From the NCBI GenBank assembly GCA_026702845.1, contig JADCLS010000002.1:124001-188000 (forward strand): a DNA stretch of 64,000 bases, written 5' to 3'. The position numbers and the translations under genes were made by a program. Source of the stretch: Candidatus Heimdallarchaeota archaeon (lineage in GTDB: Archaea > Asgardarchaeota > Heimdallarchaeia > Heimdallarchaeales > Kariarchaeaceae). Below, one piece after another: positions 11,461 to 46,821 of this stretch (position 1 is the stretch's first letter; the number at the start of each line of letters is the position of its first letter). A model generated the notes under the pieces. That model had not been told where the DNA came from. It was given only the letters and a program-made list of their open reading frames with translations, and searched no databases.

Positions 11461-11521
11461 TAAGGTAGATCGCTGATTATTCAAATATAGGTTTATATGT
11501 TCAAAGCTAGGTTTCTAAGAT

Positions 11522-13368: not shown

Positions 13369-13372
13369 GGCT

Positions 13373-13798
13373 ATGAGTGATAAGTTTTCCAAGTACATGA
13401 AGAACCAGATTGATACAATCAATCTACATTTGCCTAGGAAGACTTTGAATCTGAAACAAGTACTTATGCTCAAGGAACCCAGTGTTAAATTACGTGATGG
13501 TAATGTTCAACGATTTGAGGAGGAGGAATTGGAGTATGTAAAGAGTAAAATTGATCAATCCTCTTGGCACCAAATCCTGCTACCCATCATTATCACCAGA
13601 AGAAGAGATTTTGGGGACAATGCATATACAGTAGGAGGAGATATAGGTAATCTCTATCTCATCATGTCACTTTTCGAAGAATTGCCTCCATTCTCAGTTT
13701 GGAAATTTAACCTACCTAAGGATAAGGTCTTTTATAAGCCACAAATACAAAAGATCCGAAAGGAACTAAAATCTCTAACAGTACTTGCTTTTACCTAG
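13373..13798 (+). CDS. UPF0216 (DUF61) family protein
   Basis: A 141-residue protein with start chosen at the ATG at 13373, just after the fibrillarin stop; a longer frame would run back into fibrillarin. The pattern LRDGNVQRFEEEELEYV followed by LPIIITRRRDFGDNAYTVGG is that of the archaeal UPF0216 family, found next to translation genes but without an assigned activity. The end overlaps the convergent RNase HII gene by 4 bp. The context (C/D RNP genes) suggests an RNA-related role, which is inference only. Confidence 0.8.
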   Translation: MSDKFSKYMKNQIDTINLHLPRKTLNLKQVLMLKEPSVKLRDGNVQRFEEEELEYVKSKIDQSSWHQILLPIIITRRRDFGDNAYTVGGDIGNLYLIMSLFEELPPFSVWKFNLPKDKVFYKPQIQKIRKELKSLTVLAFT

Positions 13799-29116: not shown

Positions 29117-29457
29117 CTAGGAGTAGCAATTCTAGCGGATATTACCAGCAGAGAGGATAGTTGATGTCAGGCGGAACTAAAACCAGTGATTTTGGAGCAC
29201 CTAAAAGGGAAAATCATGATAGTAGTATTTTTTATAACTCTAAACTATATGTATCAAGCTCGAATACAAAAACCGCAGATGGGCTTGAATTCCCTCTTCC
29301 AGATGGTCTAAGAAATAATATAATACGAGGGGATAGTAGAGATCTTTCTGAGATTCCAGATCTCTCAATTCATTTAGTAATCACCTCACCACCATATAAT
29401 GTAACTAAAACTTATGATGATGATTTATCACTTGAGGAATATTTGGAATTGATCCAG

Positions 29458-29462
29458 AAAGT
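29458..29462. repeat. Target-site duplication, left copy (AAAGT)
   Basis: AAAGT precedes the transposon terminus TGTTTG. The same 5 bp follows the right terminus at 43411-43415. Five-bp duplications are the rule for Tn7-type transposition. One copy plus the flanks rebuilds the methyltransferase reading frame. Confidence 0.93.
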
Positions 29463-29468
29463 TGTTTG

Positions 29469-29528
29469 TTTTCAGCATTTATCATTCTGTTTTTCAGCAT
29501 TTTTTATTCTTTTCAGCATTATTTATTC
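29469..29528 (+). repeat. Left-end TnsB-site-like repeats (three 19-bp units)
   Basis: Units at 29469-29487, 29491-29509 and 29510-29528 share TTTTCAGCATT, then four variable bases, then ATTC. The first directly follows the terminal TGTTTG. The right end has the same motif in inverted orientation. This is the arrangement expected of transposase-binding sites that define Tn7 ends. Confidence 0.85.
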
Positions 29529-29563
29529 CATATATATTAGCAATTACTCAGAGGTGATACTTA

Positions 29564-30457
29564 ATGTCTAAAGGTACGAAAACTAGTGAATTTGGTGCAC
29601 CTAAAAGGGAAAATCATGATAGCACATATTTCTATGAGTCATCCATGTATGACGAATTGAAGGATGTCAGAACAGATCCTTCAGACGGTTTAGAAAATCC
29701 ATTACCGCCAGGATTGATAAATAAAATTATTTTAGGTGACAGTAGAGATTTATCTTTGATACCAGATCTTTCTCTCCATTTAGTAATAACTTCACCTCCA
29801 TACAATAGTCGAAAAATCTATGACCAAGATTTATCTTTAGGAGAGTACCTGGAACTAATAGAAAATGTTTTTTATGAGATATATCCAAAATTGGTTGATG
29901 GAGGACGGGTCGCCATTAATTTAGCAAATCTAGGGAGAAAACCATATATTCCAGTAACAGATTATGTCTCAAAAATTTTGAAGAATCTTGGATATATACA
30001 GAGAGGGGAGGTTATATGGGATAAAGGTGCAAGTGCTGGTTCATCATGCGCTTGGGGGAGTTGGATGAGTAGTTCAAATCCTGTACTTCGTGATGTCCAT
30101 GAATATATTTTGATATTCTCTAAAGGTACTCTGAAACGAAGTAAAGGAGAAAAAGGTAACACAATATCTAGAGATGAATTTATGGAATATACAAAGTCAA
30201 TTTGGAAATTTAATACTGTTTCTGCTAAGAAGATTGGTCATCCAGCTCCCTTCCCAGATGAACTTCCCTATCGATGTATCCAGCTATATTCATTTGAAGG
30301 AGATGTAATTTTTGATCCATTTATGGGAAGTGGTACCACTGGTCTTGTTGCGTTGAAAAACAATCGGAAATTCTTAGGGATTGATATTGAGGAGAAATAT
30401 GTAGATCTTGCTAATGATCGAATTGACGCTTATCTCTGCAAAACTGATATTCAATAA
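29564..30457 (+). CDS. DNA methyltransferase carried by the transposon (intact replacement copy)
   Basis: A 297-residue beta-class site-specific DNA methyltransferase, probably N4-cytosine or N6-adenine. Catalytic motif TSPPYN is at residues 76-81 and the SAM-binding motif FDPFMGSGTT lies near residue 255, the order typical of class beta. It is homologous over its full length to the host gene the element interrupts; the C-terminal two thirds are close to 80% identical by my hand comparison. A Shine-Dalgarno-like GAGGTGAT precedes ATG 29564 by 5 nt, and its first codons overlap the stop of the truncated host gene by 8 nt. Expression from the host promoter is therefore plausible. It probably replaces the activity lost by insertion. 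Confidence 0.92.
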   Translation: MSKGTKTSEFGAPKRENHDSTYFYESSMYDELKDVRTDPSDGLENPLPPGLINKIILGDSRDLSLIPDLSLHLVITSPPYNSRKIYDQDLSLGEYLELIENVFYEIYPKLVDGGRVAINLANLGRKPYIPVTDYVSKILKNLGYIQRGEVIWDKGASAGSSCAWGSWMSSSNPVLRDVHEYILIFSKGTLKRSKGEKGNTISRDEFMEYTKSIWKFNTVSAKKIGHPAPFPDELPYRCIQLYSFEGDVIFDPFMGSGTTGLVALKNNRKFLGIDIEEKYVDLANDRIDAYLCKTDIQ

Positions 30458-30565
30458 TTTTTTGAATATTTTTAAAAATCATCAATATATTTAATAAATT
30501 CAATGATGAATACAATACTAGCTCTCAAATTTAATTTAATCTCGTATTCAAAGGAAATAACATCT

Positions 30566-31836
30566 ACAGTACTTCCGAATCCTTAAACATCACCTCCTTC
30601 AATTAAAATAATGGTTAACCAATTCGATATTTGGCGTTAGCCAAATATTGAATGATGAATGCCTTCATTATCCGATTTATGCGTTTCTGCCTTGAGAGAT
30701 ATTTTTTGAAGTGAGAAATTTCATTGATATAGCGTATAATTTCCCAGATTAACTCCAACAGCAATGATATACCCCAAAAAATCCAACGCAACTGTAAATT
30801 TCGGGTGGAAGTCCTAATTTTAGGCACTCGGGCATGTCGATATGTATTTTCAATTCTGAATCTATGTTTATACAATCTGAAAATTTCTTCTTTTTTGAGC
30901 TCTGCAGAGCTCAGAAGTAGTATATTTTGATCATCTGTTTTTTCAAGTGTTGCAAAAACATTATAATTCCCTTCTCCTGGTCGGTACATCTGATGTGTGA
31001 ACACATCATCAATTGGATACTCTTTTTTAGAGCTATACCTCCCTCTTGCGATAAAATCCATCCTTAAAGAGTTTAGGTGCTGGAACACCTCTCTGCTGGC
31101 AAATCCGCCATCCATTAATACTGTCCTCACCCTAAGTTTTACTGGAGCTATCAGCTCCATTAAACGTTTGACGATCTCCTCACGAGGTTGACCTTTGAAA
31201 TTCACTGCAAAAGCGATGGTTATCGGATTTGAAAGGTGTTTTCCCCATTTTACAATTGAGATCGTTCCTGTTCTAAAAACAAGTCTTGATTTGGCAGATT
31301 TATCCTTCTTCGGTCCAACCATTGTAATTCTCCGACCCTCATCGTCTATTAATGCCTTCCCAAAGAATTCCTCATCATGAAGATCCAGAGCTAGTACAAC
31401 TCTGGATCTCCTATGCCTGAAGAATGGCAATTTCATTGCCATTTGCTGTAATATGACCGAAATTTGTTCTTCTATTTCAGCCATTACTAATTCATCATAT
31501 TTTTGATGCAAGATCCTCATAATCGTATCTTCTGAGGGGATTACCCCTGAAGAGGTTTCTCTCTGCATAGTTGCGATATCTTCCACAGAAGTTTGTTCCA
31601 AGGCTGCAAGAACTAATAATTTGAATATATCCTTGTGTGAGAAATACCTTGTATTTCCCACCCAAAATTGTGCATTGTCCAATGCACAATCGATGATTTT
31701 TTGTGTGTTCAATTTTGATTTTCTTTGGTGTTCGGGTTTCATTTCTACAAATTTAAAATCTGGGCACCATTTTTGAATCTTTTTAATCTAGCAATTTATT
31801 TTATCAAATAATTAACTAGGTTTTCGCGACTACTGT
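30566..31836. mobile_element. Putative ISH3-like insertion sequence within the transposon cargo
   Basis: Candidate terminal inverted repeats at 30566-30586 and 31816-31836 both begin ACAGTA when read inward and match at 14 of 21 positions by hand. They enclose a single transposase gene, giving a 1,271-bp element. No clean target duplication is seen: CATCT on the left, CTACT on the right. The ends are a proposal; the presence of an IS is well supported by the transposase. Confidence 0.6.
30615..31742 (-). CDS. DDE transposase, ISH3/IS4-like
   Basis: A 375-residue transposase. Catalytic acidic residues are visible in LALDLHDEEF, VLMDGGFASREVF and the Y-x2-R-x3-E-x6-R block of YKHRFRIENTYRHAR. 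The N-terminal helical part (KDIFKLLVLAALEQTSVEDI) and length fit the archaeal ISH3 group. It would move the 1.27-kb insertion sequence, not the Tn7-like element. It is intact, so the insertion may be recent. Confidence 0.85.
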   Translation of the reverse strand: MKPEHQRKSKLNTQKIIDCALDNAQFWVGNTRYFSHKDIFKLLVLAALEQTSVEDIATMQRETSSGVIPSEDTIMRILHQKYDELVMAEIEEQISVILQQMAMKLPFFRHRRSRVVLALDLHDEEFFGKALIDDEGRRITMVGPKKDKSAKSRLVFRTGTISIVKWGKHLSNPITIAFAVNFKGQPREEIVKRLMELIAPVKLRVRTVLMDGGFASREVFQHLNSLRMDFIARGRYSSKKEYPIDDVFTHQMYRPGEGNYNVFATLEKTDDQNILLLSSAELKKEEIFRLYKHRFRIENTYRHARVPKIRTSTRNLQLRWIFWGISLLLELIWEIIRYINEISHFKKYLSRQKRINRIMKAFIIQYLANAKYRIG

Positions 31837-32091
31837 CTACTGTTTATTTAGTGGGAAAAGTTTTATTGCTTTCAAGCAAAATAATAAATGCATGCATGGG
31901 GCAATATCAATCCAATTGTACATTTAGAAGATATCTAATTGTAAATAGGTAAGTATAATAGATTCAAGTATAATATCTCTATATTGTATTTATTCCAAAA
32001 GGTGAGTGCTAACCAGTATCCTGTCACTTTACTGCTACCATTTATTTTATACTAAGTGGTTTAAATTGTATAGTCATGATAAGTTATACTC
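31837..32091. other. Gene-free stretch between insertion sequence and cargo protein gene
   Basis: About 255 bp with no open frame of note. Together with the end of the insertion sequence, the gap from the transposase start to the next gene is 349 bp. AT-rich runs such as TTTATTTTATACT near 32042 could hold the promoter of the large cargo protein. Confidence 0.45.
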
Positions 32092-35000
32092 ATGAAAAAA
32101 TTAGAAATATTATCCATATTTTTAGTTGTTATTATATCGTTTACTGCATATGCAAATATCGAAAGCGCAAATCTTATTGCAGAAAATGTGTACAATATGA
32201 ATGATAATGATAATAACAATATAGATAACACAAATGAATTTGAAGATTTTGATGATCATTCTGAAATTGATGATGATCAATCGAATGTATTGCAGAGTAG
32301 TATTGAATTAGATGGTAGTACAGATTATTTTTATCACTGTGAGGTAGCCTTTAATTGCATGCATGTAAATTCACCATCGACTGGAGGTGAACCGCAGACA
32401 TTGAATCAAGTACCAGGACTATTCCAAGCTTATAGTATTTTATTAGCAGAATATGCACTGGTGCGTGCTGACCCTGCCTATACTGTAACGAATGAAAAAC
32501 TATGGGGATTTGGGTCATCTCCATTTAAGGGGACATCATGGGAAGGTGTCATAAGTCCAGCAAGTACTACTTTTATGCCGATAGTTTCGACAAGAGAGAG
32601 GCTTCAGATACCACAATCAGGAACTTACGTAAGGTATAACGGGGCACCACAACCCCATATGTTAGAGGAATTTCCCCCTAAATTTAATGGAGAAGAATTA
32701 TATTACTTATATTTCACTGCAATAGCCTCGAATGGCCATAACCCTCCAGTGTATTTAGGTGATGGTGAGGGAGTCGTACCAGATACCGTGGTGAGATTTG
32801 CTATGCCATATGATCGTGATAAAGACGATCCAGAATTACTTGTTGAAGTAATATCAGAGGGACAATTGGGCTGGAACCCATTAATGATATATGATCTTAA
32901 TTATGATTCCTCTACAGAGCCTGCATACCCAATAATTATTTTTGATGACTATGGTAAAGCAGTAATTCCAAGTCAGCCTTGGTTATTACCTGATGCTTGG
33001 GATGAAACAATTGAACCCCAATTAGTGCATCTAAACTATTACCATACGCAATTCACAATAGAAGATGCGTTGGAGGCTGTCGTATCAATTTACAGAAAGT
33101 CTAAGGACTTTTCAGATTCAATATTGACTGAGATATTTTTACGTCAATCTGAATATCATTTTTCGTTTGGTGCACAGGATACAGAAACATCTATAATGTA
33201 TATAGTGGAATTTGCACATGATTATGCACGAACTGTATCATTTATGAATGAAAGGTTTCCATCAACATCGACTAATTACATAATCCCATCTAATACTTGG
33301 AATATGGTATGGGCAGATCCGGCAGTGCCAGTCTCCCCTGATTGGAATACTCTGCAGACGCTAAGTACAGATCCTATAACAGAGACAGTAGATACATACC
33401 AGGATGGTTTGCAGATGATATGGGATGCAAATCATCAATGTCTTGATTTGTCGTGCATGGTTTATCCAAATGCATACTCAGATGTAGTTGGTAAAGAAAT
33501 GGTGTATTTTGTGCAAACACTGAGTGGTGGAATTATAAACAAAGTTAAAAAAGTAATAAATTGGTTAACTAGTAATAATGATGATGGAGACGACGGAGGA
33601 GACGATGGTAATGGTGGAACCGTAACAGTGGTGCCCACACCGGCATGGCAAACCCAATCTACAGCTAATGTGATTAGGTCCCCTACTCGTCCGATCAATC
33701 CACCAATGACATTTTTTGAAATTTTCATTCTTGTGTTGGCTGTTATATTAGGCTTGATGGTGATTGGTGCGGTTCTATACTATGGTGGAGGAGCATTGCT
33801 CGGAGGAGCTGGGAGTTTAGGAGTTCCAGCATTAGTTGGATTGATAATAATATTGGCAATTCCAGCTGTCGCTTCAATGGACGCTTCTGAATTAGCATCA
33901 TATGGAATTACTGGATATGATTATGATACTGATAACGATAACCTGCCAGATTGGTATGAAGTAAATCATGGATTGTCAGATCCGACAATACCAAACAGGG
34001 ATGAATTAGAACAATATGAGAACAATTTCTTATTAACTGAAGTACCATTATGGGATATTGGTACGCCATCATCATGGAGTGTTTCAGGTGCCAAAAAGCA
34101 TGAAGGACCATATTCGTTAGAGATGAAAAGTTCCACAACTAAAACCTATGAAATAATAAGAATAACTTCATTGGATAATGTTAACACAATAGAAGCGTGG
34201 GTATACATGAAAAGTACGAATTATGGTATGCCAACACTATATCTTGGAGTAGAATCAATAGATCAGTCTCAAGGTCTCCCAATCGAAAGTGGTTATATGT
34301 GGAGACATTATAAGGATCATATGACGCTATATAAGGTTACACCTAATGGAATGGGTAGTGGGATAATGACAGATCTTGGAGAATATTACACAGGGTATAA
34401 GGCAAACTCCTGGTTCCATATAAAATTAGAAACATCAGGAAATGAAGCAAGGGCATGGTATTCTACTTCTGCAGCTTTTACTGAAATACCACAAAGAACA
34501 TATGTATCCGCAGATAATATTCCACTTGCAAATGGAGCTATAAGTGGTAGAGTACTGGGTACTTATTATCCGGTATATTTTGATGAATTAAAATTGCAAT
34601 CAGAAGGAAACCAGTATAAATACAATACTGGATTTAATTCTGCTCCAAAAACATGTGCACCTATTGAATTATATACTTGCTCAGGTTTTGATTCCAGAAA
34701 TAATGTTGGTGGAGATGAGCAATATACAATAACTACCTATGATGGCAGAACTGTAATGAGGTCCGTGGAAGACTACTCTGAAAGTACATATAGAATGATA
34801 GATCATAATAGGGTGGGAACTGATATGTCAGTGGAAACATCGTTCAGGGTAACCAATCAATATAAAACAGTTGGTTTAGCCGTTAGGGTATCCAATCCTG
34901 GAGGTGTACGAGATGGTTGGAATAGATGGGATATGGGTGATATTCCACATACTTTCCACGTAAAAAATGCATATGGGGCATTCTTTTATAAAAGTGAATT

Positions 35001-35859
35001 GCGATTGTACCGCATTGGTGCATATAAATTCGCAGAGAATTTAAAATCGGTGACCTTACCATCAGCGATACATAGTGGATGGAAATATGTAAAGATGCAG
35101 ATAGTCGGGAATAATATAAAAGTTTGGTACTCTTCATCAAGTGATTATGGATCACCAATTTTAGAGTATAATATTGGAATGGATCAAACGAAATTGATTG
35201 CGGGATCCACCGGTGTGTTTTTTAGAAAGTTAACTTCTTCTGCATATGGATATACACATTTTGATACATTTGAAACATCACCTATCATAGGAAACATGGC
35301 AACATGGGATGATGTTGCGTTTGAAGGGGAAGCGGTATCTTTTAGGCCATGGGATTTAGTTGATTTGACACCTAATATAAATTCTGCATATGGAACCATC
35401 TATATGCAGCAATCAAATGTTGAAGAATTAATGATGTCATTTACATTCCTATCAGCTGCCACTTATGGCACCACTGGTGCAGATGCAGTATATGCCTATC
35501 TCTGGGGTGCAGGCACATTCAGTTCTGAAGACGATACTACAGGTGGAGTACTTATTTCAGTGGATTATTGGGCAGATACTTTCTCCATTAAAAAATCAGG
35601 ATCTGTCTTGTCATCAATCTCAATAAGTGAAGTGAGTAATGGACAAATGCATACGGTTGATATTCAAGCGAAGCGCACAGGTGATATAATTGAGCTTAAA
35701 GTATCTTTAGACAATGTTGTAATGGTAAATGTTTGCTACGATTATTCTGGAGGCTCGTTAGGGAATTATTTTGGGATAGGTGCACGGACAGGCGGATATT
35801 GTTCTCATAATCAATTATTTGATATATTATTTATGATGGATAAGAGCTACATATCTTAA
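32092..35859 (+). CDS. Large secreted/membrane-anchored LamG-like cargo protein
   Basis: A 1255-residue protein. A signal peptide-like start (LEILSIFLVVIISFTAYA) is followed by an Asn/Asp-rich acidic stretch at residues about 36-66. Residues about 70-500 are a globular region without a recognised domain. Two hydrophobic segments lie at about 541-600. A calcium-loop-like DTDNDNLPDWYE (about 611) as in thrombospondin type-3 repeats follows. The rest appears to hold three concanavalin/LamG-like beta-sandwiches (for example WDIGTPSSWSVSG and SVETSFRVTN). It is probably a cell-surface protein. It lies in the transposon cargo and its function there is unknown. Confidence 0.7.
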   Translation: MKKLEILSIFLVVIISFTAYANIESANLIAENVYNMNDNDNNNIDNTNEFEDFDDHSEIDDDQSNVLQSSIELDGSTDYFYHCEVAFNCMHVNSPSTGGEPQTLNQVPGLFQAYSILLAEYALVRADPAYTVTNEKLWGFGSSPFKGTSWEGVISPASTTFMPIVSTRERLQIPQSGTYVRYNGAPQPHMLEEFPPKFNGEELYYLYFTAIASNGHNPPVYLGDGEGVVPDTVVRFAMPYDRDKDDPELLVEVISEGQLGWNPLMIYDLNYDSSTEPAYPIIIFDDYGKAVIPSQPWLLPDAWDETIEPQLVHLNYYHTQFTIEDALEAVVSIYRKSKDFSDSILTEIFLRQSEYHFSFGAQDTETSIMYIVEFAHDYARTVSFMNERFPSTSTNYIIPSNTWNMVWADPAVPVSPDWNTLQTLSTDPITETVDTYQDGLQMIWDANHQCLDLSCMVYPNAYSDVVGKEMVYFVQTLSGGIINKVKKVINWLTSNNDDGDDGGDDGNGGTVTVVPTPAWQTQSTANVIRSPTRPINPPMTFFEIFILVLAVILGLMVIGAVLYYGGGALLGGAGSLGVPALVGLIIILAIPAVASMDASELASYGITGYDYDTDNDNLPDWYEVNHGLSDPTIPNRDELEQYENNFLLTEVPLWDIGTPSSWSVSGAKKHEGPYSLEMKSSTTKTYEIIRITSLDNVNTIEAWVYMKSTNYGMPTLYLGVESIDQSQGLPIESGYMWRHYKDHMTLYKVTPNGMGSGIMTDLGEYYTGYKANSWFHIKLETSGNEARAWYSTSAAFTEIPQRTYVSADNIPLANGAISGRVLGTYYPVYFDELKLQSEGNQYKYNTGFNSAPKTCAPIELYTCSGFDSRNNVGGDEQYTITTYDGRTVMRSVEDYSESTYRMIDHNRVGTDMSVETSFRVTNQYKTVGLAVRVSNPGGVRDGWNRWDMGDIPHTFHVKNAYGAFFYKSELRLYRIGAYKFAENLKSVTLPSAIHSGWKYVKMQIVGNNIKVWYSSSSDYGSPILEYNIGMDQTKLIAGSTGVFFRKLTSSAYGYTHFDTFETSPIIGNMATWDDVAFEGEAVSFRPWDLVDLTPNINSAYGTIYMQQSNVEELMMSFTFLSAATYGTTGADAVYAYLWGAGTFSSEDDTTGGVLISVDYWADTFSIKKSGSVLSSISISEVSNGQMHTVDIQAKRTGDIIELKVSLDNVVMVNVCYDYSGGSLGNYFGIGARTGGYCSHNQLFDILFMMDKSYIS

Positions 35860-35937
35860 TGTGTAGAGGTTCAAAAATAAAAAAACCAAATAAAGATTTA
35901 AAACATTATGAGTAATTCAAAATAATAAGATAATTGT

Positions 35938-36507
35938 ATGTTTGATCTGATAGCAATACATTTGATGATAGTATATCTATTATTAATTATTAATTATGAA
36001 TTAGGGAGGAAAATAGAACGCAATGGATTGTGGTATCAATATAATGTAGGAAAAATATTAATCTCTGGAAGGAAGCGAGAGTATACATCTCGGATAATAT
36101 ATGCAATAGCACAAGTATTATTCGTTCATTTGATATGGGGAGTAAGTGAATTCTATACTTTAATATTCGATAATTTGTCCAATACATACCAAGAACTATT
36201 ACATGTGTTATTTTACAATGTTGGTATAGTAGTATGGGGAACAATAATTTTGTCTTATGTAATGCTTATTATGATGCAGGTAATGGTTTTAATGAGAGGG
36301 AATGGTAATCAGACCTCCCCACCAACCAAATCAATTTCTATACGTAAATATCATATCTGGGGTATATCCTGGTTAATGGCAACCATATTATTACAAGATC
36401 TGTTTTATATGGGGGGGATCTTGTCTGCTGTATTAGTAATACCAAGAGCAATTAATATTTCGGACATATCATTAAGGAATTTAAATACTGACGTGGAGAA
36501 TGATTGA
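35938..36507 (+). CDS. Small multi-pass membrane protein (transposon cargo)
   Basis: A 189-residue protein with about four hydrophobic segments, including residues 1-22, 50-80, 95-120 and 135-170. No motif is recognised. Its stop overlaps the next gene by 8 nt, indicating co-translation with the cysteine-motif protein that follows. It lies 78 bp after the large secreted protein, so the three may form one cargo operon. Confidence 0.6.
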   Translation: MFDLIAIHLMIVYLLLIINYELGRKIERNGLWYQYNVGKILISGRKREYTSRIIYAIAQVLFVHLIWGVSEFYTLIFDNLSNTYQELLHVLFYNVGIVVWGTIILSYVMLIMMQVMVLMRGNGNQTSPPTKSISIRKYHIWGISWLMATILLQDLFYMGGILSAVLVIPRAINISDISLRNLNTDVEND

Positions 36508-37099
36508 AATGAAAGATACAAAATACGCAAGTCGTCGTATCGAAAAAGAAGATGTTGCGTTTGATGGAAAATATTTTCGACATAAAACATGCAAAATAAA
36601 AGAAAAATCGAAACTTAAGCGTAATTTATATATGTATAAATGCATGTCCTGTGGAATGGTAGGCTATGCAGATATCTTAATTAAACAAATACGGGATCAA
36701 GTATCGATGAATTTTTATCCTGCTATATTTGAAAAATTAAAAAAGGCAGGAGTGGCCAGTGGAAATGAAATTAAGTTGATTGATGGGAGAGATGAATTAA
36801 TTAATTACTTTTATGCCAATGACTTAAATGCGGATATTTATATGCATTTCAATAATCTATTTTTAAAATGTAAAGGTATTGGAAAATATGATGTATATAC
36901 TATATATGAAGATCATAACAAAAACGAAGTGTATCTACAATATGTGAGACAATGGATTTTAGATCCTGACAATCAAAAACATCAAGAAACGGTATGGCAG
37001 TGGCTTAAAATAATAGATTCGATAACTTGGAATTATGGACACCCGAAGTCACCATGGACACCATTTAGATCCAAAGAATTTGAAGAGTATTCATTCTAA
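36500..37099 (+). CDS. Unknown cargo protein with a CxxC motif
   Basis: A 199-residue soluble protein. A likely metal site is formed by HKTC and CMSCGMVGY near residues 28-55. The later part is helical and aromatic-rich (YVRQWILDPDNQKHQETVWQWL) without a named domain. Its start lies inside the end of the preceding membrane-protein gene (8-nt overlap). I do not recognise the family. Confidence 0.55.
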   Translation: MIEMKDTKYASRRIEKEDVAFDGKYFRHKTCKIKEKSKLKRNLYMYKCMSCGMVGYADILIKQIRDQVSMNFYPAIFEKLKKAGVASGNEIKLIDGRDELINYFYANDLNADIYMHFNNLFLKCKGIGKYDVYTIYEDHNKNEVYLQYVRQWILDPDNQKHQETVWQWLKIIDSITWNYGHPKSPWTPFRSKEFEEYSF

Positions 37100-37150
37100 G
37101 AATACTCTTTTTAAATAATTAGCATAATTATCAGTCGATGGGAGAACAAG

Positions 37151-37270
37151 TGTATAATATGGGTTAAAGGTACAAGTGCAGGTTAATCTTGTGCTTGGGC
37201 TTCTTGGTGTAGCTCCGATTCATGAAATTGTTAAGAGAAATGAGTAATTAACTATAACCGCTGAAAACTA
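37151..37270 (+). pseudogene. Decayed third copy of the DNA methyltransferase
   Basis: Translated from 37151 the sequence reads CIIWVKGTSAG, a stop, then SCAWASWCSS, matching the methyltransferase segment IIWDKGASAGSSxAWGSW. A second match, VKRN...TITAEN, corresponds to the KRNxxxxxxTITRDE block further on, with the intervening 20 or so residues deleted. Stop codons and the deletion show that it is non-functional. Its residues agree with both other copies. It is inside the transposon cargo, on the same strand as both other copies. Confidence 0.7.
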
Positions 37271-37283
37271 ACCATTCACATGA

Positions 37284-37535
37284 CTAGACCGGAATACAGT
37301 TTTCAAACTCAAAATCCCAGTCATCTATTGGAGAGCCTGCAGGATATTCAACACCATCAGCTTTTACTACCAATAGATTACTACATGTACATTCTATATG
37401 AGCCTCATATATGACTGATATCTCAGAACCCATTGCTCTGTCATCAATTTCAAATGAGTCAATATGTACCCAGTTTTTCATTATATGTTTTTTTGAACAT
37501 TTCTCACACTTTACTTCTATTTGACCAATATACAT
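37284..37535 (-). CDS. Small CxxC protein (transposon cargo)
   Basis: An 83-residue protein with CEKC and later CTC cysteines, possibly a zinc site, and an acidic C-terminus. A strong Shine-Dalgarno-like AGGAGGAAA lies about 10 nt before the ATG at 37535, unusual in this window and supporting the start. It is transcribed in the same direction as the tns operon, 154 bp downstream of its last gene. No family is recognised. Confidence 0.55.
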   Translation of the reverse strand: MYIGQIEVKCEKCSKKHIMKNWVHIDSFEIDDRAMGSEISVIYEAHIECTCSNLLVVKADGVEYPAGSPIDDWDFEFENCIPV

Positions 37536-37689
37536 TGTTAGAGTTTCCTCCTAATAAATGATAGTAATAAATGTATAATTTAAGTTTTCTCCAAATCATT
37601 AACACCTCTGTTCACCTCCAACCTACATAACTAGTTAGTGAATCTTAAGTACGTATCAAACTAGCTCAAGTATTGAAGAATACAGGATA

Positions 37690-39351
37690 TCAAGAACTTA
37701 GCTTAATTAACTCTCGGATTTCTTGATATGTCATTAATGTTTTATGTGCAATTTTTGTTTTTGTTGATATAGAACTATAGCTAATTGGAATGTTAGAAAC
37801 TTTTAGATAATTTAATGCTTCTAGAACTCTTTTTATATACCGAGATAATTTTTGCTGTTTTCGATATTTCTCAATTAATATCCTTAATGACGGGTATTTA
37901 TTTAATGTGGCGCAACTATATTTCGTTTTCCTAAAAACATTTTTCGTGTTAATAGTGAGATCAGATTGCATTAACTCCTCTATTGCAGATTTCGTTAAAT
38001 TCTCATAATGAGAATTTCTTTCTTCATATGTTAATTTTGGTAGCTTTATATATCGATCACTATGTCTTTTATCCAAATGGGGTCGAACAATAAGATAAAA
38101 AAATTTATGTTTCTCAAATACTGTTACTGGAATTCTTGTTATTCTACATATTTCTGCAAATGTAATATTTTTCTTTTTCTTATTTAGTTCTTCGATAGTT
38201 TGTATTATTAGTACTTTGAGGTCTTCAGAATGCATTTTATGCAAATGCTTTGTCATGTTAAATGTATCTGGAAATGTTGCATCACAATTTGAGAAAACAC
38301 AATTGATTTCTTCAGAATAATGAACTCTCTTTTTATGATACTTTAAATCTGTTTTTAAGGTATATAATTGTCCACATTTATCACATTTAAGTTTTGGATC
38401 TGTATGGACATATTTTAGATGCATAGTTAATGATCCGTTAGATCCAAACATTTTATTACATTCAAGGCAAGGAATTAACTCATTTATTGATTGATGCTCC
38501 ACGGCTAACCTGTATGAAATTTCAGTTAAATAGTAATTTCGCAGAAGGTGGTTCATCTCTTTTTCGTATCTATAACCATATTTATCAAAAATTTTTTGCA
38601 GGTAGTCTTCATTTCGTCTAAGAATAAGACTAAATATTTTCCAAAATATCCCAAGGAATGTAGTTGAATCCATATTTTTCAGAGGAGAAGCTTTTTCAAA
38701 GAAAATACTTAATAGTATATTTGAAGTCTTTAAGGTTGCATTCTGAGTTTTGGAGTTATGAAGATAAACCAAGCATTTTGGACATTTATCAAGTGTAATT
38801 TTTTGTTTGTTTTTGTAACCGTTTTTGAAATAACGGAATTTCGAGTTACATGTCCCACAACGATCTAATAATAATACATTATGAATATGACAGGCATTAT
38901 AAAATGTAAATCTCCAATAAATCTTATAATATGGAATTTCTTCTTTTAGGCAAAAGGTGCAGAATTTATTTTGAGACTTCCATTTTGCGTTATATTTTTC
39001 AAAAAAAGGTGGTGTTAGCCAAACTGTTGCATTGAAACCATCCAACTTATTTAATTTCCTTATTAATGAAGTTTTTTTTGTATATATAAAATCAGGAAAA
39101 TGATTGTCATAATATGCCAAAGTATGTTTTCTAAGATCGGTGATGTCATAATCCATGTATTTTGATAGGAAAGACAAAATATCCTCAGAGGGGTCCAAAT
39201 CATAGATATCTTCATATATATTTCGCATACTATTAAGCTTCAATAGATGTGGAATATCATTAAGATATTTTTCAGATATTCGTTTTATCCAAGATGATAT
39301 AGATTCAAAAGGTTGAATTGATGGTCTTATTGGCCAAATATCATCATGCAT
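37690..39351 (-). CDS. tnsD: TniQ/TnsD target-selection protein with three C2H2 zinc fingers
   Basis: A 553-residue protein. The N-terminal TniQ part begins IWPIRPSIQPFESISSWI and has the TniQ zinc-binding pattern CTFC, HIHNVLLLDRCGTC and CPKC (residues 131-193). Residues 295-374 contain three consecutive canonical C2H2 fingers (C-x2-4-C-x12-H-x4-H), each with the aromatic and Leu/Met core positions. They start at 295, 323 and 351, exactly 28 residues apart. Residues about 396-551 hold three HTH-like repeats ending in a K/R-Y-x-x-I/L-R-x-L-I-type pattern. TnsD proteins bind a specific target DNA and recruit TnsC. Here zinc fingers plus HTH repeats are the likely reader. The start overlaps the tnsC stop. 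Confidence 0.9.
   Translation of the reverse strand: MHDDIWPIRPSIQPFESISSWIKRISEKYLNDIPHLLKLNSMRNIYEDIYDLDPSEDILSFLSKYMDYDITDLRKHTLAYYDNHFPDFIYTKKTSLIRKLNKLDGFNATVWLTPPFFEKYNAKWKSQNKFCTFCLKEEIPYYKIYWRFTFYNACHIHNVLLLDRCGTCNSKFRYFKNGYKNKQKITLDKCPKCLVYLHNSKTQNATLKTSNILLSIFFEKASPLKNMDSTTFLGIFWKIFSLILRRNEDYLQKIFDKYGYRYEKEMNHLLRNYYLTEISYRLAVEHQSINELIPCLECNKMFGSNGSLTMHLKYVHTDPKLKCDKCGQLYTLKTDLKYHKKRVHYSEEINCVFSNCDATFPDTFNMTKHLHKMHSEDLKVLIIQTIEELNKKKKNITFAEICRITRIPVTVFEKHKFFYLIVRPHLDKRHSDRYIKLPKLTYEERNSHYENLTKSAIEELMQSDLTINTKNVFRKTKYSCATLNKYPSLRILIEKYRKQQKLSRYIKRVLEALNYLKVSNIPISYSSISTKTKIAHKTLMTYQEIRELIKLSS
38230..38469 (-). other. C2H2 zinc-finger array inside TnsD
   Basis: This codes for residues 295-374 of TnsD. 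Finger 1 is CLECNKMF...SLTMH-x4-H, finger 2 CDKCGQLY...DLKYH-x4-H, finger 3 CVFSNCDATF...NMTKH-x4-H. By the Zif268 scheme the helix positions -1, 2, 3 and 6 are S,G,S,M; L,T,D,Y; and D,F,N,K. Linkers are seven to eight residues and not TGEKP. Confidence 0.9.
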
Positions 39352-40319
39352 TATAGATTCTCCTTTTCGTATTTTTCAATCAATTCATTTGTTATACAAT
39401 CTTCTTCGTGCATTATTGTATATACTGCTATATCTTTAATTACTTGAACGAGTGATCTTAGATCAACAGATTTCATTTTGCCTTTGTCATTCTGATTGGA
39501 AGCAATTTGGAGTAGAGGATTATAATTCATTTTATATGTGATATCAAAAATTTTTTTGGATGTTTTTGTAGATTTGAGGCTAGAAGGTTTTGGAAATGGT
39601 AAAAATTTTTCATAACCTCCAAGAAATGACATAAATTCTTTGGAATACTGCCAAGGTGTAAGAACTGAAAATGGCTTTATTCTGCATCTACTTGCAAGTT
39701 GTTTGTCTTTTGTGAGAATTTCTAAAGCACCCCTTGTACCAACAGGAACTAGGGGAACACCAGATGCTTGTACTACCCTTTTAAGAGAGTTTATTGTAGT
39801 CTGTTCATTTCTTCCCAAGGCATGTTGTATCTCATCAGCAAAAAGTAATCTCACTTCAGTTTCCTTTAACAGATCGATGCAAGCATGTTGGAGTTGAATT
39901 GTTGAAAATTTCCCAAGTCTCTTTTTTTGGATAGGATATTGAAAGGGCTCCGCTAGAAGAATTTCAAGGAATAATCCTTTTAACCCCAATTCTGCATCAG
40001 ACAATGTGGCATGTGCAATTTTATATGTGCTATGCTCTTTCTGCTTGATTATTTTTTGATTCAATTCCTTAAAATATTTTATGATTGCTGTCTTTCCAGT
40101 TCCGGAATCTCCAACAATACTAATACTTCTTAGATCCATATTTGGTCGTTGAGGTTGTCGTATGATTATACTTAACTCACGAATGATTTTCATTGCCTGT
40201 GGGTATTCAACAAAATGCTCATCCATTATCCAATCAATTTTTGCCTTCCTTCCTTTTTTAATTGTTCTTTTCGTTTCACTATTCAAATGAGGGTATTCAT
40301 CTATTGTTTCCTTATTCAT
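39351..40319 (-). CDS. tnsC: TnsC AAA+ transposition regulator
   Basis: A 322-residue AAA+ ATPase. Walker A is GDSGTGKTAI (residues 70-79) and Walker B LLFADEIQHAL (D162, E163). VPVGTRGALEIL and RCRIKPF match sensor-type positions of the TnsC/TniB family. TnsC polymerises on DNA and links the target selector to the TnsAB transposase. Its start overlaps the tnsAB stop by 8 nt and its stop overlaps the tnsD start (TAATG). Confidence 0.93.
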   Translation of the reverse strand: MNKETIDEYPHLNSETKRTIKKGRKAKIDWIMDEHFVEYPQAMKIIRELSIIIRQPQRPNMDLRSISIVGDSGTGKTAIIKYFKELNQKIIKQKEHSTYKIAHATLSDAELGLKGLFLEILLAEPFQYPIQKKRLGKFSTIQLQHACIDLLKETEVRLLFADEIQHALGRNEQTTINSLKRVVQASGVPLVPVGTRGALEILTKDKQLASRCRIKPFSVLTPWQYSKEFMSFLGGYEKFLPFPKPSSLKSTKTSKKIFDITYKMNYNPLLQIASNQNDKGKMKSVDLRSLVQVIKDIAVYTIMHEEDCITNELIEKYEKENL

Positions 40320-43158
40320 CCTCTTCTACATCTCCAAACATATCTGCGATCCATTTTGCAGTATCATCTATTTCAGCATCATATGCCTCGATTTCTTTAG
40401 AAGGATCATCCAAAATATCTTCTACTTCCACAAATTTCGATTTCATTTGTTGATTTTTTCCCATCCCCTCAAGTAGAGCTACTTTTCCTTCAAGCAGCCC
40501 ATCATCTGATTTCAAGATATTCTCCAATAATTTCTTATCTTTAATTGTTAGCTTGGTATTGTTTTTTATCTTTTTGGTAATTTCTTTGAACATAATGATT
40601 CTATCATATTGATTTCGTTTAGTATCATCATCAACAATATTAGATCTTGCATGATCGATAATATCTTGGGGAACCTCAAAATTGTATTTTATGCCATCGA
40701 GTAGTAATTGTAATATTCTATCATCACCTTCGTAATTATAACATTGTAGTACATGCAATATATTATCTTGAGGATCTTTCATCCAAATAAATCTTCGATC
40801 CCATTTGGAAACTTTGTAAGTATATTTTTCACCATCTCTAAGTATCATTTGTTTTCGCGCCTCTCGTAGCCATTTACTGGAATAATATACATTATGATTT
40901 CTAAAACCTCTTTCTGACAATACAGATGTGTTTTCTTCTTTACTTGTATAGTTGAGATAGTGAAATTCATCCATATCTAATATTTTAAGCGCACCACCTA
41001 AAGATTGTTTGTTTAGCCCCTCTTTTCCATCTTTCCAGATTTGATTTGGAGAGTTTTTCTGCCTACTTCTCTTTCCAGAGTTAAATTTTAAAATAATAAA
41101 TGCATAAATCCATTGTGAAAACTCATAGAAAGTCAGTTGAGCTTCTTTTTTCGGATTATAATTTTTCGGTGCTGTAAATTTCGGTTTTTTGGATGCTTTT
41201 CTCATTTTGGGAAGAGAAAATACTTTGCCAGGAAGGTTTTCATTCCTTATCGCATCATTTATTGTATCCCATATAGATTCAATAAATCCTCCATATTCTG
41301 GAGTTTTTATCGGTCGAAATTCCAAAGTGATATTTTGATCCATACACATTTTCTTAATGCTTCTGGCTCGAAAATCAAGGCTATTATCCACTTGGATTTT
41401 GCCTGGAAATCCTGAAGCATTCCATTTAAAGTTGTCTGGATTCTTTCCTTTCTTAATCAAGAAGCCTTCAAATAGATTCCAAGCCTTTAGTTTATTTTTA
41501 TTAATTAATCCACTCAATATACATTGAGCTACAGATTCTTGTGAAGGTGGATTTGGAGAGAGAAAAATGCCCCAAATACTCCTAGTTTTAACATCTACAC
41601 CAATTGTTATCCATGGACGACTATAAGCTTCTCTTGTAAACTCATCAACTAACCAAATATCTGCCAATGTGTGGTCAATCTGTATAATTGATCCAGGATG
41701 TTTACCTTCTTTATAAACTCCCTTTAATCCTCGTTTTATGGAGCGTGATTTATTAGTGGAAAACTTTCCATGGGATTCAATTGCAGGTAATTCGTTTATT
41801 CTTCTCCAAAATGTAGTAAGAGAAGGAATATCCTCGTAACTTATACCATTATTTTCGCATAACTCAATAAAATCATCATAACTGCCAGTAACTTGTTTTT
41901 GTGTTTTTCGAACATCACCTTTTTTTGTACTCAAATTGTTCCAATCAATAATTGCCTTATTAAGTAAAAATTCAATTTTCTCACCAAAATAACTTTTAGA
42001 ATGCTTGGATTTCTGTTTTGGATAGAGAAAACCATCTCCTCCCTTCCTCCACTTGATGTAATAATTATATGCACTTCTAGATTTTGTAATATCATACATC
42101 AGATCATTTATACAAAATTGCAATACACCTGTTTTTTTACCATTTCTACCAAATTTTTTTACTATTGGTTGAATGAGAGTTTTTCTTTTAACATATTTTT
42201 CCTCACGTTTCCATTGGCTGTATAGCTTACTAATCATTTCAAAACGATAATCATTCTCCTTACAATAATCCCGAATATCTTCCCTTGTTGCTTTATCTCC
42301 GAATTTTTCAATGATTTGACTAATTCGATTTTTATCTAGATCTGATAGTAAATTGGTACTTGTTGGAATATTAAGTAAATTATCACTTTCTTTAGACTTG
42401 CCAATGGATTTTTCAAAATCAGGTAACTTATAGATGGGAATTATCTCTAGTAGTTTATTTGATATTACAGCATTCTCAAAATATGTATCCCAATCAAATG
42501 AGAAATAGCCAAAATATAGTTGATTTTTTAGTAATGATATTATAATTTCAATAGGTAGCGGTGATATTTGACTAATTGCATTACAAATTTCTGTAAAAGT
42601 TTTAGTATAGTTATTGTCCTCTATGTACTTTCGAATTTTATCAATGATTAGTAGATCATCATTTGTTTGATCAATTATGGAATGCTTTGCTGAAGTGATA
42701 AGATGTTTTAGGTTTTCCAATCTTTGATTTCTGATTTTCTTTTCTGTGACAACCATATAATTCCAATTTCGTTTACTACATTCTTTTTTTATTTCCTCAA
42801 ACTTTAATTTCCAATTGCAATCATTTTGCATCTCTTGCCATTGTTTTTCAGTTTTTACTTCAAACAAAAATTCTTTCCCATCTTTAAATACTGCCCAAAT
42901 ATCAGGATAAAATTTTGTAGAATTTTTTGATTTTGTGGAATATACAAATTCAATTGGTTGTGTTTGGAGGTCTAGGCAATTTGGGTCATGATCAAGCATC
43001 AATAGAAAATCATGTTCCAATAAAGATTCATACTCCCAAATACGTTTATTTCCATTTCCATCAAGATTTCTTGCTTTCAATGATGGCATAAATCCTCTAT
43101 TGCTACTTGTTGTTAAAGGGATCTCCCTTGCTTTATTAGGTCTATCAATTTTTAACAT
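40312..43158 (-). CDS. tnsAB: TnsA-TnsB fusion transposase
   Basis: A 948-residue fused protein. I chose ATG 43158: a TTG-initiated frame from 43230 would begin beside the probable TATA box. The TnsA endonuclease part shows E44-E48 (WEYESLLEHDF), D86 (FYPDI) and E100-x-K102 (FEVKTEK), a restriction-enzyme-like site that cuts 5' ends. The TnsB part is an RNase H-fold integrase with D495 (IQIDHTLAD), D591 (IQVDNSLD) and E627 (GGFIESIW), cutting 3' ends and joining them to target. N-terminal helical segments probably bind the end repeats. Tn7 itself has separate TnsA and TnsB; fused versions occur in other branches, including some I-B CRISPR-associated transposons. Confidence 0.95.
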   Translation of the reverse strand: MLKIDRPNKAREIPLTTSSNRGFMPSLKARNLDGNGNKRIWEYESLLEHDFLLMLDHDPNCLDLQTQPIEFVYSTKSKNSTKFYPDIWAVFKDGKEFLFEVKTEKQWQEMQNDCNWKLKFEEIKKECSKRNWNYMVVTEKKIRNQRLENLKHLITSAKHSIIDQTNDDLLIIDKIRKYIEDNNYTKTFTEICNAISQISPLPIEIIISLLKNQLYFGYFSFDWDTYFENAVISNKLLEIIPIYKLPDFEKSIGKSKESDNLLNIPTSTNLLSDLDKNRISQIIEKFGDKATREDIRDYCKENDYRFEMISKLYSQWKREEKYVKRKTLIQPIVKKFGRNGKKTGVLQFCINDLMYDITKSRSAYNYYIKWRKGGDGFLYPKQKSKHSKSYFGEKIEFLLNKAIIDWNNLSTKKGDVRKTQKQVTGSYDDFIELCENNGISYEDIPSLTTFWRRINELPAIESHGKFSTNKSRSIKRGLKGVYKEGKHPGSIIQIDHTLADIWLVDEFTREAYSRPWITIGVDVKTRSIWGIFLSPNPPSQESVAQCILSGLINKNKLKAWNLFEGFLIKKGKNPDNFKWNASGFPGKIQVDNSLDFRARSIKKMCMDQNITLEFRPIKTPEYGGFIESIWDTINDAIRNENLPGKVFSLPKMRKASKKPKFTAPKNYNPKKEAQLTFYEFSQWIYAFIILKFNSGKRSRQKNSPNQIWKDGKEGLNKQSLGGALKILDMDEFHYLNYTSKEENTSVLSERGFRNHNVYYSSKWLREARKQMILRDGEKYTYKVSKWDRRFIWMKDPQDNILHVLQCYNYEGDDRILQLLLDGIKYNFEVPQDIIDHARSNIVDDDTKRNQYDRIIMFKEITKKIKNNTKLTIKDKKLLENILKSDDGLLEGKVALLEGMGKNQQMKSKFVEVEDILDDPSKEIEAYDAEIDDTAKWIADMFGDVEEDE

Positions 43159-43230
43159 AATATCTTCTTTGTTTTCATTCCATGAATATTTCACTACGTT
43201 TAATGACACAAAACATATTATGCATTTCAA

Positions 43231-43238
43231 TATATAAA
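43231..43238 (-). promoter_or_regulatory. TATA-like box of the tns operon
   Basis: Read on the minus strand this is TTTATATA, about 73 nt before the tnsAB ATG at 43158. It lies only 12 bp inside the innermost right-end repeat, so bound transposase could repress its own operon, as in other Tn7 relatives. The effect is inference. Confidence 0.4.
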
Positions 43239-43250
43239 GTCATGATGCTA

Positions 43251-43404
43251 GAATATTTAATGGTGAAATATGTTGTAATGATTAAACAATGATGAAATAT
43301 AATCATATCAAAATTAGTTGAATGCAAAATGATGAAATCCATAAGCGGAAGCCTTTTAATTTAAATCAAGAAATATTGAATTATTGAATGAGAAATGTCG
43401 CACC
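43251..43404 (-). repeat. Right-end TnsB-site-like repeats (four units)
   Basis: Read on the minus strand, units at 43386-43404, 43320-43338, 43280-43298 and 43251-43269 resemble the left-end 19-mer. The inner three share ATTTCAYCATT, and the outermost has CATTTCTCATTC, close to the left end's CATTTATCATTC. The four are 16 to 66 nt apart. Three left and four right sites is the same count as in Tn7. Confidence 0.8.
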
Positions 43405-43410
43405 CAAACA

Positions 43411-43415
43411 AAAGT
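43411..43415. repeat. Target-site duplication, right copy (AAAGT)
   Basis: The 5 bp follow the transposon terminus CAAACA and repeat 29458-29462. The methyltransferase coding sequence resumes directly after them. Confidence 0.93.
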
Positions 43416-44013
43416 ATTTGAAGAAATACATCCCAAACTAGTAGATGGAGGGAGGATTTGTCTAAATCTCGCAAATTTAGGAAGGAAACCATACATTCCA
43501 CTCACAGACCATATCAGTCAAATTCTCACGGATATTGGCTACATGCAGAGAGGGGAAATAATTTGGGATAAAGGTGCGAGTGCAGGATCCAGCACTGCAT
43601 GGGGGTCTTGGAAATCAGCTAGCAATCCCACTCTCAGAGATGTTCATGAGTATATCCTTGTTTTCTCAAAGGGAACTATGAAGCGAAATAAGTCAGAGAA
43701 GGAAAATACTATAACCCGAGATGAGTTTATGGAGTTTACCAAATCGATCTGGCAATTCAATACCGTTTCAGCAAGAAAAATTGGACATCCAGCCCCATTT
43801 CCAGTTGAATTACCCTATAGATGCATCCAACTATATTCCTTTCTTGGTGATGTGATTTTTGACCCATTTATTGGAAGTGGATCGACTGCCATTGCAGCAT
43901 TGAAATCTAACAGACAGTATCTTGGAATAGATATCAATCAAGAGTATGTTGATCTTGCTGAAGATCGTATTGATGCATATTTACTTAAAAAAGCGAAAAA
44001 ATTTGAGACCTAG
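43416..44013 (+). pseudogene. 3' fragment of the interrupted DNA methyltransferase gene
   Basis: This encodes the C-terminal 199 residues of the host methyltransferase, starting VFEEIHPKLVDGG and including WDKGASAGSSTAWGSW and the SAM-binding FDPFIGSGST. The reading frame joins 29164-29462 exactly when one AAAGT copy is kept. No start of its own lies within the remnant; an ATG-initiated frame from 43388 inside the transposon end runs into it, but lacks the catalytic TSPPYN half. It therefore cannot be an active enzyme alone. The DUF1156 methylase gene begins 8 bp after its stop, which suggests the two formed an operon before insertion. Confidence 0.9.
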
Positions 44014-46080: not shown

Positions 46081-46794
46081 ATGTTGCTGATTGTAATGAC
46101 TTCCGAGCTTATTTCTGATGCATCTCTCGACAAGTTAGAAGGAGATGTTATTCGAGCAAAAATATCAGAAAAAGTTCGTCAAGTAAAGAAGGATTTTCGA
46201 TTACTACACTATGAATTTACCAGATTTAATGAGAATTTGGCATCTAAACTTGAAGTACAATGGAAGAAGGAGGAGATTAACAAGGGAGAACGAGCTTCTG
46301 CTAGGCTATCAAGATGGAGAGAAATGGCAAAATATTATCGGAGTCAAGCTCTGGCAGAGTTATCCGATTTCTGGTATGATCGATTTTGGTTGATGCGTTC
46401 AGAAGTGGCATTGATAACCTCAATTTATGAACTTAGTGGGTTGAAAACTATACCTGAGTTTATGAAAAAATGGGAACCAAAAGAATTTCCAGAACTTAAA
46501 CCTCTTGTCATGAGAATGGGTGGACCCCGTAAACCAAAGGGTAAAAAATTTGGTGTTTCTGATTTATCCTATGATATTAATGCAGCATATCTGCAAATGA
46601 TTAAACCATTAGAAGATTGGTTACTTGAAACAGCAAAATTAGTTGAAAACTTGAAAGAAGTCAAGAAAAAGCAAACTGTAGCTACCAAAATAAAACGATA
46701 TCAAGAATCCTTGTACGTTCGAGAATATCTTACAGTATTATGTCAAGCAGTTGCTCCAAGACAGAGCAGTTATACAGATAATCAGAAAAAATAA
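46081..46794 (+). CDS. Unknown helical protein next to the DNA methylase
   Basis: A 237-residue basic, helical protein; ATG 46081 is taken, ATG 46096 being an alternative. Charged helices such as RAKISEKVRQVKKDFRLLHY and KEVKKKQTVATKIKRYQESL dominate, with a PRKPKGKKFG loop. There is no recognised motif. Its position 52 bp after the DUF1156 methylase suggests a shared transcript and perhaps a defence- or DNA-related role, which is inference only. Confidence 0.6.
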   Translation: MLLIVMTSELISDASLDKLEGDVIRAKISEKVRQVKKDFRLLHYEFTRFNENLASKLEVQWKKEEINKGERASARLSRWREMAKYYRSQALAELSDFWYDRFWLMRSEVALITSIYELSGLKTIPEFMKKWEPKEFPELKPLVMRMGGPRKPKGKKFGVSDLSYDINAAYLQMIKPLEDWLLETAKLVENLKEVKKKQTVATKIKRYQESLYVREYLTVLCQAVAPRQSSYTDNQKK

Positions 46795-46821
46795 CTTATT
46801 TGCTTAGAATTGAATCTCGAT

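Follow-up and report, generated by a model that had tools for sequence, protein, structure and literature searches.

Can a transposon that breaks a conserved gene bring along the replacement for that gene? The question is raised by a 64,000-nucleotide stretch of contig JADCLS010000002.1 from Candidatus Heimdallarchaeota archaeon (assembly GCA_026702845.1), which is called the window below. Positions 29463–43410 of the window (13,948 bp, no strand assigned) are a complete Tn7-like transposon, which is inserted in a DNA methyltransferase gene and carries an intact homologue of the same gene at its left end. The anatomy of the element is certain, and it is unusual. A first-pass annotation made from the sequence proposed that the element restores the function it destroys. 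We consider such self-rescue plausible: that the carried homologue takes over the methylation lost upon insertion is the best single reading of the locus, and we hold it tentatively.

Insertion of the element into the methyltransferase gene

The boundaries of the element, determined from the target duplication and a search for ends and repeats, are exact to the base and place it inside the methyltransferase gene, as annotated at first pass. The left flank, ...CCAGAAAGT, ends in AAAGT (29458–29462) and is followed by TGTTTG, and the right terminus ends in CAAACA, after which AAAGT is found again at positions 43411–43415. Both ends begin with TGTTTG when read inwards, and the two AAAGT copies form a 5-bp target duplication. 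With this duplication and its matching ends, the element bears the marks of having transposed into the gene as one unit.

The left end (29463–29531, forward strand) consists of the TGTTTG terminus and three tandem 22-nt repeats, the first of which is TTTTCAGCATTTATCATTCTGT, with start-to-start spacings of 22 and 19 nt. Three repeats of the sequence TTTCAYCATT are located in the right end on the reverse strand (43259–43268, 43288–43297, and 43328–43337; overall 43259–43337). The repeats at both ends are likely to be TnsB sites. Their ten-base core, TTTCANCATT, occurs three times in each end and 13 times in the window, where 2.3 copies are expected, and none of 100 shuffled sequences reached 13. 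The 5-bp duplication, the TGT...ACA ends, and the several transposase sites per end are those of Tn7-like elements. The insertion inside a gene rather than beside an attachment gene departs from the Tn7-like pattern; it does not decide membership, since the published Tn7-like element Tn6022 likewise interrupts a gene.

The 5′ part of the broken gene (29164–29462, forward strand) comprises codons 1–99 and two bases of codon 100 and includes the left AAAGT. The 3′ part (43411–44013, forward strand) includes the right AAAGT and matches PF01555 with an E of 1.4e-35. Excision of the element together with one AAAGT yields an unbroken methyltransferase frame of 298 codons, in agreement with the first-pass annotation. 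The insertion point at codons 99–100 lies between the TSPPYN sequence in the 5′ part and the DPFIGSG sequence in the 3′ part, which we take to be motifs IV and I, respectively. Because the two motifs are in separate halves, neither half should work alone. Neither part contains a stop codon or a frameshift, which suggests that, measured against the pace of gene decay, the element inserted recently.

Carried copy of the methyltransferase

The carried methyltransferase gene (29564–30457, forward strand) begins with its own ATG at position 29564, 101 bp inside the left end of the element, and encodes an intact protein of 297 residues (PF01555, E 1.2e-43). The description of this gene as a full-length homologue of the target is thereby confirmed. 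The protein matches the PADLOC model MTase_II with 381 bits over residues 3–296, and the solved structures closest to it in sequence are those of a putative modification methylase and of cytosine-N4 methyltransferases. It is 75% identical to the protein of the rejoined target over 293 positions (220 of the 298 host residues), and the DNA sequences are 68.5% identical over 883 aligned bases. By region, the identities are 70/99 for codons 1–99, 36/50 for 100–149, 72/86 for 150–235, and 42/63 for 236–298. The C-terminal identity of close to 80% that had been estimated by hand holds for one 122-codon stretch (79.5%) and is slightly lower from codon 100 onwards (150/199, 75%). Residues 150–235, the most alike of the four stretches compared, presumably form the target-recognition region, which determines specificity in this enzyme class. 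The strong similarity of this region makes it likely that the carried copy and the target share their specificity, and there is no sign of the difference in specificity that had been named as a finding that would speak against replacement.

The two copies have diverged for a long time. The proportions of non-synonymous (pN) and synonymous (pS) differences between them are 0.19 and 0.80, so that synonymous sites are saturated, and the same codon is used at 103 of the 220 identical residues. The saturated pS, low pN, and few shared codons indicate an old divergence under constraint. The longest exact matches of the carried gene to the broken gene are 26 nt in the 5′ part and 14 nt in the 3′ part. 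With matches this short and a DNA difference of 31%, deletion of the element by recombination between the copies is likely to be limited.

Phylogenetic trees of 54 and 31 rows place the carried copy together with the database proteins P0002–P0005 and the copy from the Asgard genome G001 (support 100/96 and 100/98). The G037 copy (P0005) and the G001 copy are intact genes located in stretches without recognised Tns genes. Together with an intact copy in G158, they are among the uninterrupted methyltransferase genes for which the first-pass annotation had suggested searching Asgard genomes. A sister relationship of the host and carried copies is rejected (P value of the approximately unbiased test, p-AU, 0.025), as are groupings of the host copy with that of G037 (0.020) and with those of G037 and G001 (0.037). 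Grouping of the host copy with P0013 (0.55) or with the whole carried clade (0.18) is not rejected. The 75% amino acid identity and the p-AU value of 0.025 rule out that the carried gene was recently duplicated from the target; the first-pass annotation had also described the copies as diverged. The absence of a sister relationship, together with the grouping with the G037 and G001 copies, shows that this target did not give rise to the carried copy, and therefore a homologue of the gene that it broke was already part of the element on arrival. Most simply, this homologue would have come from a related Asgard host.

Transposition genes and target selection

The transposition genes run inward from the right end of the element in the order TnsA-TnsB fusion, TnsC/TniB, and TniQ, and all are unbroken. 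The TnsA-TnsB fusion (TnsAB; 40312–43230, reverse strand) has 972 residues and matches PF08722 (E 3.6e-10) and a TnsB profile (E 4e-14). In the numbering of the 965-residue database form, Asp512, Asp608, and Glu644 are invariant in 15 aligned TnsAB sequences, with 35 residues separating the last two. This is the pattern expected of a DDE transposase, and the three residues probably constitute its catalytic triad. TnsA and TnsB proteins of plasmids match the fusion with a best E of 8e-27 among the matches listed. The TnsC/TniB AAA+ ATPase (39351–40319, reverse strand) has 322 residues (PF05621, E 1.1e-28; AAA_22, 2.6e-10).

The TniQ/TnsD-like target selector (37690–39351, reverse strand) has 553 residues and matches PF06527 over its full 142 positions (E 9e-15). 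It can be divided into a TniQ domain (residues 7–161), three C2H2-type zinc fingers identified by a motif scan (residues 295–316, 323–344, and 351–374), and a further C-terminal region. The AlphaFold model of the protein had a mean predicted local distance difference test score of 48 and was not used. The finger motifs are common, at least in part, to two of three aligned relatives, and they are possibly a DNA-reading module for target choice, which would be unusual. C2H2-type fingers are also present in TniQ or adjoining proteins of other Asgard Tn7-like elements (L111 14189–15857, L114 1–2600). Among the 227 Asgard genomes searched, 20 contain TniQ matches; in 15 of these 20, the match is confined to the zinc-finger stretch or its vicinity. 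TnsAB matches, at E up to 0.001, are found in 13 of the 227, and the best-scoring one is 39% identical.

Distribution of the gene family and its interruptions

The N-terminal part of the methyltransferase family gives 50 matches in 46 of the 227 Asgard genomes, which is about one per genome. Interrupted copies were recognised in two of these 46 genomes, G159 and G043. In G159, the same gene is split between two contigs, with the 5′ part on C2 (L207 11102–11519) ending in ...GRKPYIPLHAY and the 3′ part on C279 (L187 10719–11282) starting with ADDMIGLGF. Both parts abut ends that share TGWGTTTTTTTGAAA and have inner repeats. The junctions have only 2 bp (AC) in common, so this is not a textbook Tn7 insertion with a 5-bp duplication. 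The site is intact in the related genome G158. When additional copies of the G159 element were sought by sequence pattern, the two ends already known and a single weaker match on a different contig were returned. The G159 and window insertions fall on either side of the conserved stretch GGRxxxNLANLGRKPYIP. The interruption in G043 (L213, G043:C74 3327–5246) is an intein-like insert at approximately codon 166, with a LAGLIDADG domain above the Pfam cut-off and an intein-splicing domain below it. Counting the window, inserts of three different kinds are found in this family in Asgard archaea. Partial Asgard matches in G084, G035, G162, and G146 run to contig ends, and the G103 copy contains stop codons.

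No broken copy was recognised in the phylum of an Anaerolineae genome, where 22 of 400 genomes have the N-terminal part and one short match is explained by a contig end. The same holds for the phylum of a Bacteroidetes genome, in which 21 of 395 genomes have the N-terminal part, 20 in frames of at least 304 residues and one as a partial match in a frame of 243 residues. In the database protein P0006 (483 residues), a complete copy of the methyltransferase stands in tandem with a partial one, and L190 (G090:C243) has three successive methyltransferase-like stretches at 10888–14288, the last in the opposite direction.

Replacement of the broken gene and alternative explanations

The sequence shows an element with the marks of transposition as a unit, which cuts its target between the two catalytic motifs. 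If the carried copy replaces the broken gene, the zinc-finger TniQ would steer the element to the conserved methyltransferase gene, probably by recognising DNA in the conserved stretch that adjoins the right end. The carried enzyme would then be made and would methylate the former sites of the target. Because the same sites would be methylated, the host would keep its methylation pattern and the element would not be selected against. Such a strategy is favoured by the fact that target and cargo belong together, by the placement of an intact spare right at the end of the element, and by how rarely a random hit would be expected. Its full form would be natural home-and-rescue, in which homing through the zinc-finger TniQ destroys the gene, a diverged, target-resistant copy replaces it, and the methylation of the cell becomes transposon-dependent; this is possible but doubtful.

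Expression of the carried gene could be served by the sequence around its start. A ribosome-site-like sequence, GAGGTGAT, is located at 29551–29558, ahead of the ATG (feature 29551–29571, forward strand). The reading frame of the broken gene stays open through the left end of the element until a stop codon at 29569–29571, which overlaps the start of the carried gene. Ribosomes ending there could restart at the overlapping ATG, so that the enzyme may be produced partly in this way, and hence the host promoter may serve the carried gene. A TATA-like stretch approximately 30 bp upstream, noticed by eye, could act as a promoter of its own.

Several results weigh against replacement. The left end is equally open in 14% of shuffled sequences, which means that the coupled start may be due to chance and that translational coupling is a suggestion only. 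No match to the N-terminal part of the gene was found in 181 of the 227 Asgard genomes, for which completeness is not given, indicating that the gene is not generally essential. No restriction-enzyme partner was recognised among the neighbouring genes scanned, and loss of methylation may therefore be harmless. The assembly of G159, in which the interior of the element is not joined to its ends, shows no spare, and the best other N-terminal match has an E of 2e-5; a gene broken without a visible spare speaks against a strict need for it. We reject the idea that the carried copy was specially recoded around the site of insertion. The alignment does show AATGT in the carried copy and AAAGT in the target, as reported at first pass, where this difference was thought to protect the carried copy. 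Nevertheless, the DNA identity in 15-codon windows across codons 91–135 is 0.64, 0.67, and 0.71, compared with 0.685 for the whole gene, so that the site is no more diverged than the rest. Tn7-like elements show self-avoidance. If the spare escapes targeting, it would do so by this means or through its general divergence.

Further cases of the design were sought among loci of the methyltransferase family and of the transposase, and these results likewise count against a general strategy. The family loci comprised the best 80 of 562 genome matches, the best 80 of 302 viral matches, and 14 Asgard contigs, a total of 174 (170 distinct); flanks of the genome and viral loci extended to at most about 10 kb and were often shorter, and many of the viral loci are distant relatives. 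The Tns proteins of the window had no match in these loci at E 1e-5. Self-comparison of 20 other Asgard contigs with TnsAB, many of them cut by contig ends, revealed no split flanking gene paired with a homologue in the cargo (the pairs of L117 and two of L111 were left out). Thus, the first-pass suggestion to look for Tn7-like elements whose left-end gene is homologous to their target yielded none in the Asgard genomes searched. Related pairs more than 1 kb apart occur in six of the 20 contigs (L111, L112, L114, L116, L117, and L128), and several of them fall in TniQ, zinc-finger, or TnsAB stretches. The nearest thing to the design is L112 (G045:C353), in which two related intact genes in opposite orientation (1919–3454 and 10388–11914), 33–37% alike in two stretches, flank TnsAB and TnsC. 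L117 (G084:C95), which also has TnsAB and TnsC, contains related stretches at 793–1188 and 6199–7434, and an inverted pair at its contig ends (180–293 and 17387–17500) that is 97% alike. No related element was found inserted in the same gene elsewhere. With no further example identified among the Asgard genomes searched, the case for a strategy depends on this one element.

A search of 5.8 billion proteins provided 18 further TnsAB relatives, three of them distant. By eye, the lengths of their longest contigs coincide with none of those of the best 120 of 7,999 methyltransferase matches. Accordingly, no related element was seen to carry the same methyltransferase into an unrelated gene, an arrangement that the first-pass annotation had named as contrary to its proposal. 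The comparison is weak evidence, as it was one of lengths, extended to a capped set of methyltransferase matches, and involved many short contigs. Together with the lack of Tns matches in the 174 family loci, it leaves the carried gene unsupported as a standard cargo of this transposase family. In viral contigs, TnsAB had no match in one search and two weak matches in another.

An alternative explanation, which we judge rather unlikely, is that the methyltransferase gene is a tolerated attachment gene: TniQ would target conserved DNA, the host would do without the gene, and the carried enzyme would serve the element itself, for example by anti-restriction marking on arrival. The repeated interruption of the family, by the window element, by the G159 insert with its TGWGTTTTTTTGAAA ends, and by the intein-like insert of G043, is what such a gene would show, and the missing spare in the G159 assembly points the same way. 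Published elements are described as breaking dispensable genes, such as comM in the case of Tn6022 (PMC10293859) and rumA in the case of integrative mobilizable elements (IMEs) (PMC5704250). However, toleration leaves the family match between cargo and target unexplained, the gene is not the cargo of a related Tn7 element in any of the 174 family loci, and the G159 junctions share AC instead of a 5-bp duplication.

It is unlikely that the arrangement is a coincidence, in which a Tn7-like element with a methyltransferase among its cargo inserted by chance into a homologue of that gene, with neither targeting nor replacement. The single case and the lack of further examples speak for chance, and defence systems are reported to be abundant in the cargo of Tn7-like elements (PMC8649781). 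Against this, with about one copy of the gene per genome, we estimate that an element would land at random in the homologue of its own cargo approximately once in a thousand insertions, a figure to be read in the light of the case having been picked for its oddness. In capture by recombination, an ancestral element or the adjoining insertion sequence (IS), rearranged next to an older insertion in the same gene family, would have acquired a neighbouring methyltransferase, which would now be a fossil of targeting and not a device. Such capture fits the presence of an IS transposase gene 157 bp beyond the end of the carried gene, as well as the grouping of the carried copy with intact copies in related genomes, but is improbable, given that the gene is intact and constrained and lies right at the end of the element with a complete-looking left-end repeat array outside it, and that no trace of an older insertion was recognised. 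Replacement of the broken gene by the carried copy remains our preferred reading.

Other cargo and genomic context

The remaining cargo is located between the carried methyltransferase and the transposition genes. The IS transposase (30615–31742, reverse strand) has 375 residues and is nearest to the ISH3 family, below the NCBIfam cut-off. It is followed by genes for a 1255-residue protein (32092–35859, forward strand), which has signal-like and membrane-like stretches by eye and no family match worth naming, a 189-residue protein (35938–36507, forward strand), which appears membrane-like by eye and has no family match, and a 199-residue protein (36500–37099, forward strand) with a weak zinc-binding resemblance below the cut-off.

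Outside the element, a DUF1156-type DNA methyltransferase gene (44022–46028, forward strand) starts 8 bp after the broken gene. It is matched by the HmaB profile and, below the cut-off, by that of an anti-phage DUF1156 family, and it had no match in the other Asgard contigs compared. Next are a gene for a 237-residue protein (46081–46794) and an alcohol-dehydrogenase-like gene (the two together 46081–47862, forward strand). In G037, an intact methyltransferase gene is located approximately 2 kb before the homologue of the 237-residue protein gene, which is followed by the dehydrogenase homologue. The intact gene is flanked by homologues of window genes at 8.7–13.4 kb and 46.1–52.8 kb, and the genes shared by G037 and the window are 43–73% identical. 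In G039, the methyltransferase gene is approximately 1.5 kb from the homologue of the 237-residue protein gene. Because the intact gene keeps the same neighbours in G037 and G039, the locus of the broken gene looks native to the host. Several of the closest protein relatives are labelled Heimdallarchaeota or Kariarchaeaceae, and these labels, like the gene order in common with G037, point to an Asgard host.

Relation to known elements and significance

Tn7-like elements are reported to use safe sites and to leave their attachment site intact (PMC8649781). The window element resembles Tn7 and its relatives in having core genes beside the right end, a 5-bp duplication, repeat arrays at both ends, and cargo between the left end and the tns genes. 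It differs from them in that it splits a gene and carries its homologue, TnsA and TnsB are fused, and TniQ has C2H2-type fingers. A conserved motif of comM is the site split by Tn6022 and Tsy, and Tn6022 is thus a Tn7-like element that splits a conserved protein-coding gene; in contrast to the window element, its selector is TnsF with TniQ, and no carried comM copy is mentioned in the part of the report that we draw on (PMC10293859). No Tn7-like transposase is reported from archaea in a 2021 survey of 6,549 elements (PMC8649781), whereas TnsA-TnsB-like proteins occur in Asgard archaea, in the window (40312–43230) and in the 13 genomes with matches.

Elements that supply a sequence keeping the function of the gene they enter are found among genomic islands, integrative conjugative elements, and IMEs. 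Islands in tRNA genes restore the split gene (PMC4383910); serine-recombinase IMEs split dispensable genes such as rumA, while others repeat the end of the target and so keep it (PMC5704250). These elements restore one end of a gene through a recombinase attachment site, whereas here a whole diverged gene is carried on a DDE transposon. Completion of the split gene as a hybrid with the element end is not the case, since the carried gene is complete and separate. In engineered cleave-and-rescue and home-and-rescue drives, the rescue copy is recoded. Such drives break a gene and carry a working copy of it (PMC7968924, PMC7951863); they differ from the window element in being designed and nuclease-based, in the essential nature of the gene, and in the resistance given to the rescue copy. 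In the open-access literature, we found neither an element whose cargo includes a complete, diverged homologue of the gene that it interrupts, which agrees with the first-pass annotation, to which no described Tn7 relative working in this way was known, nor a paper on archaeal Tn7-like elements with TniQ zinc fingers.

The element adds a worked example of a Tn7-like transposon in Asgard archaea. Should the carried copy prove functional, the inside of a conserved gene, normally a harmful site, would be open to a transposon that delivers the cure along with the damage. Engineered cleave-and-rescue elements would then have a natural precedent, a transposon would have a means of making its host dependent on it, and a conserved gene could be exchanged for a foreign homologue by this route.

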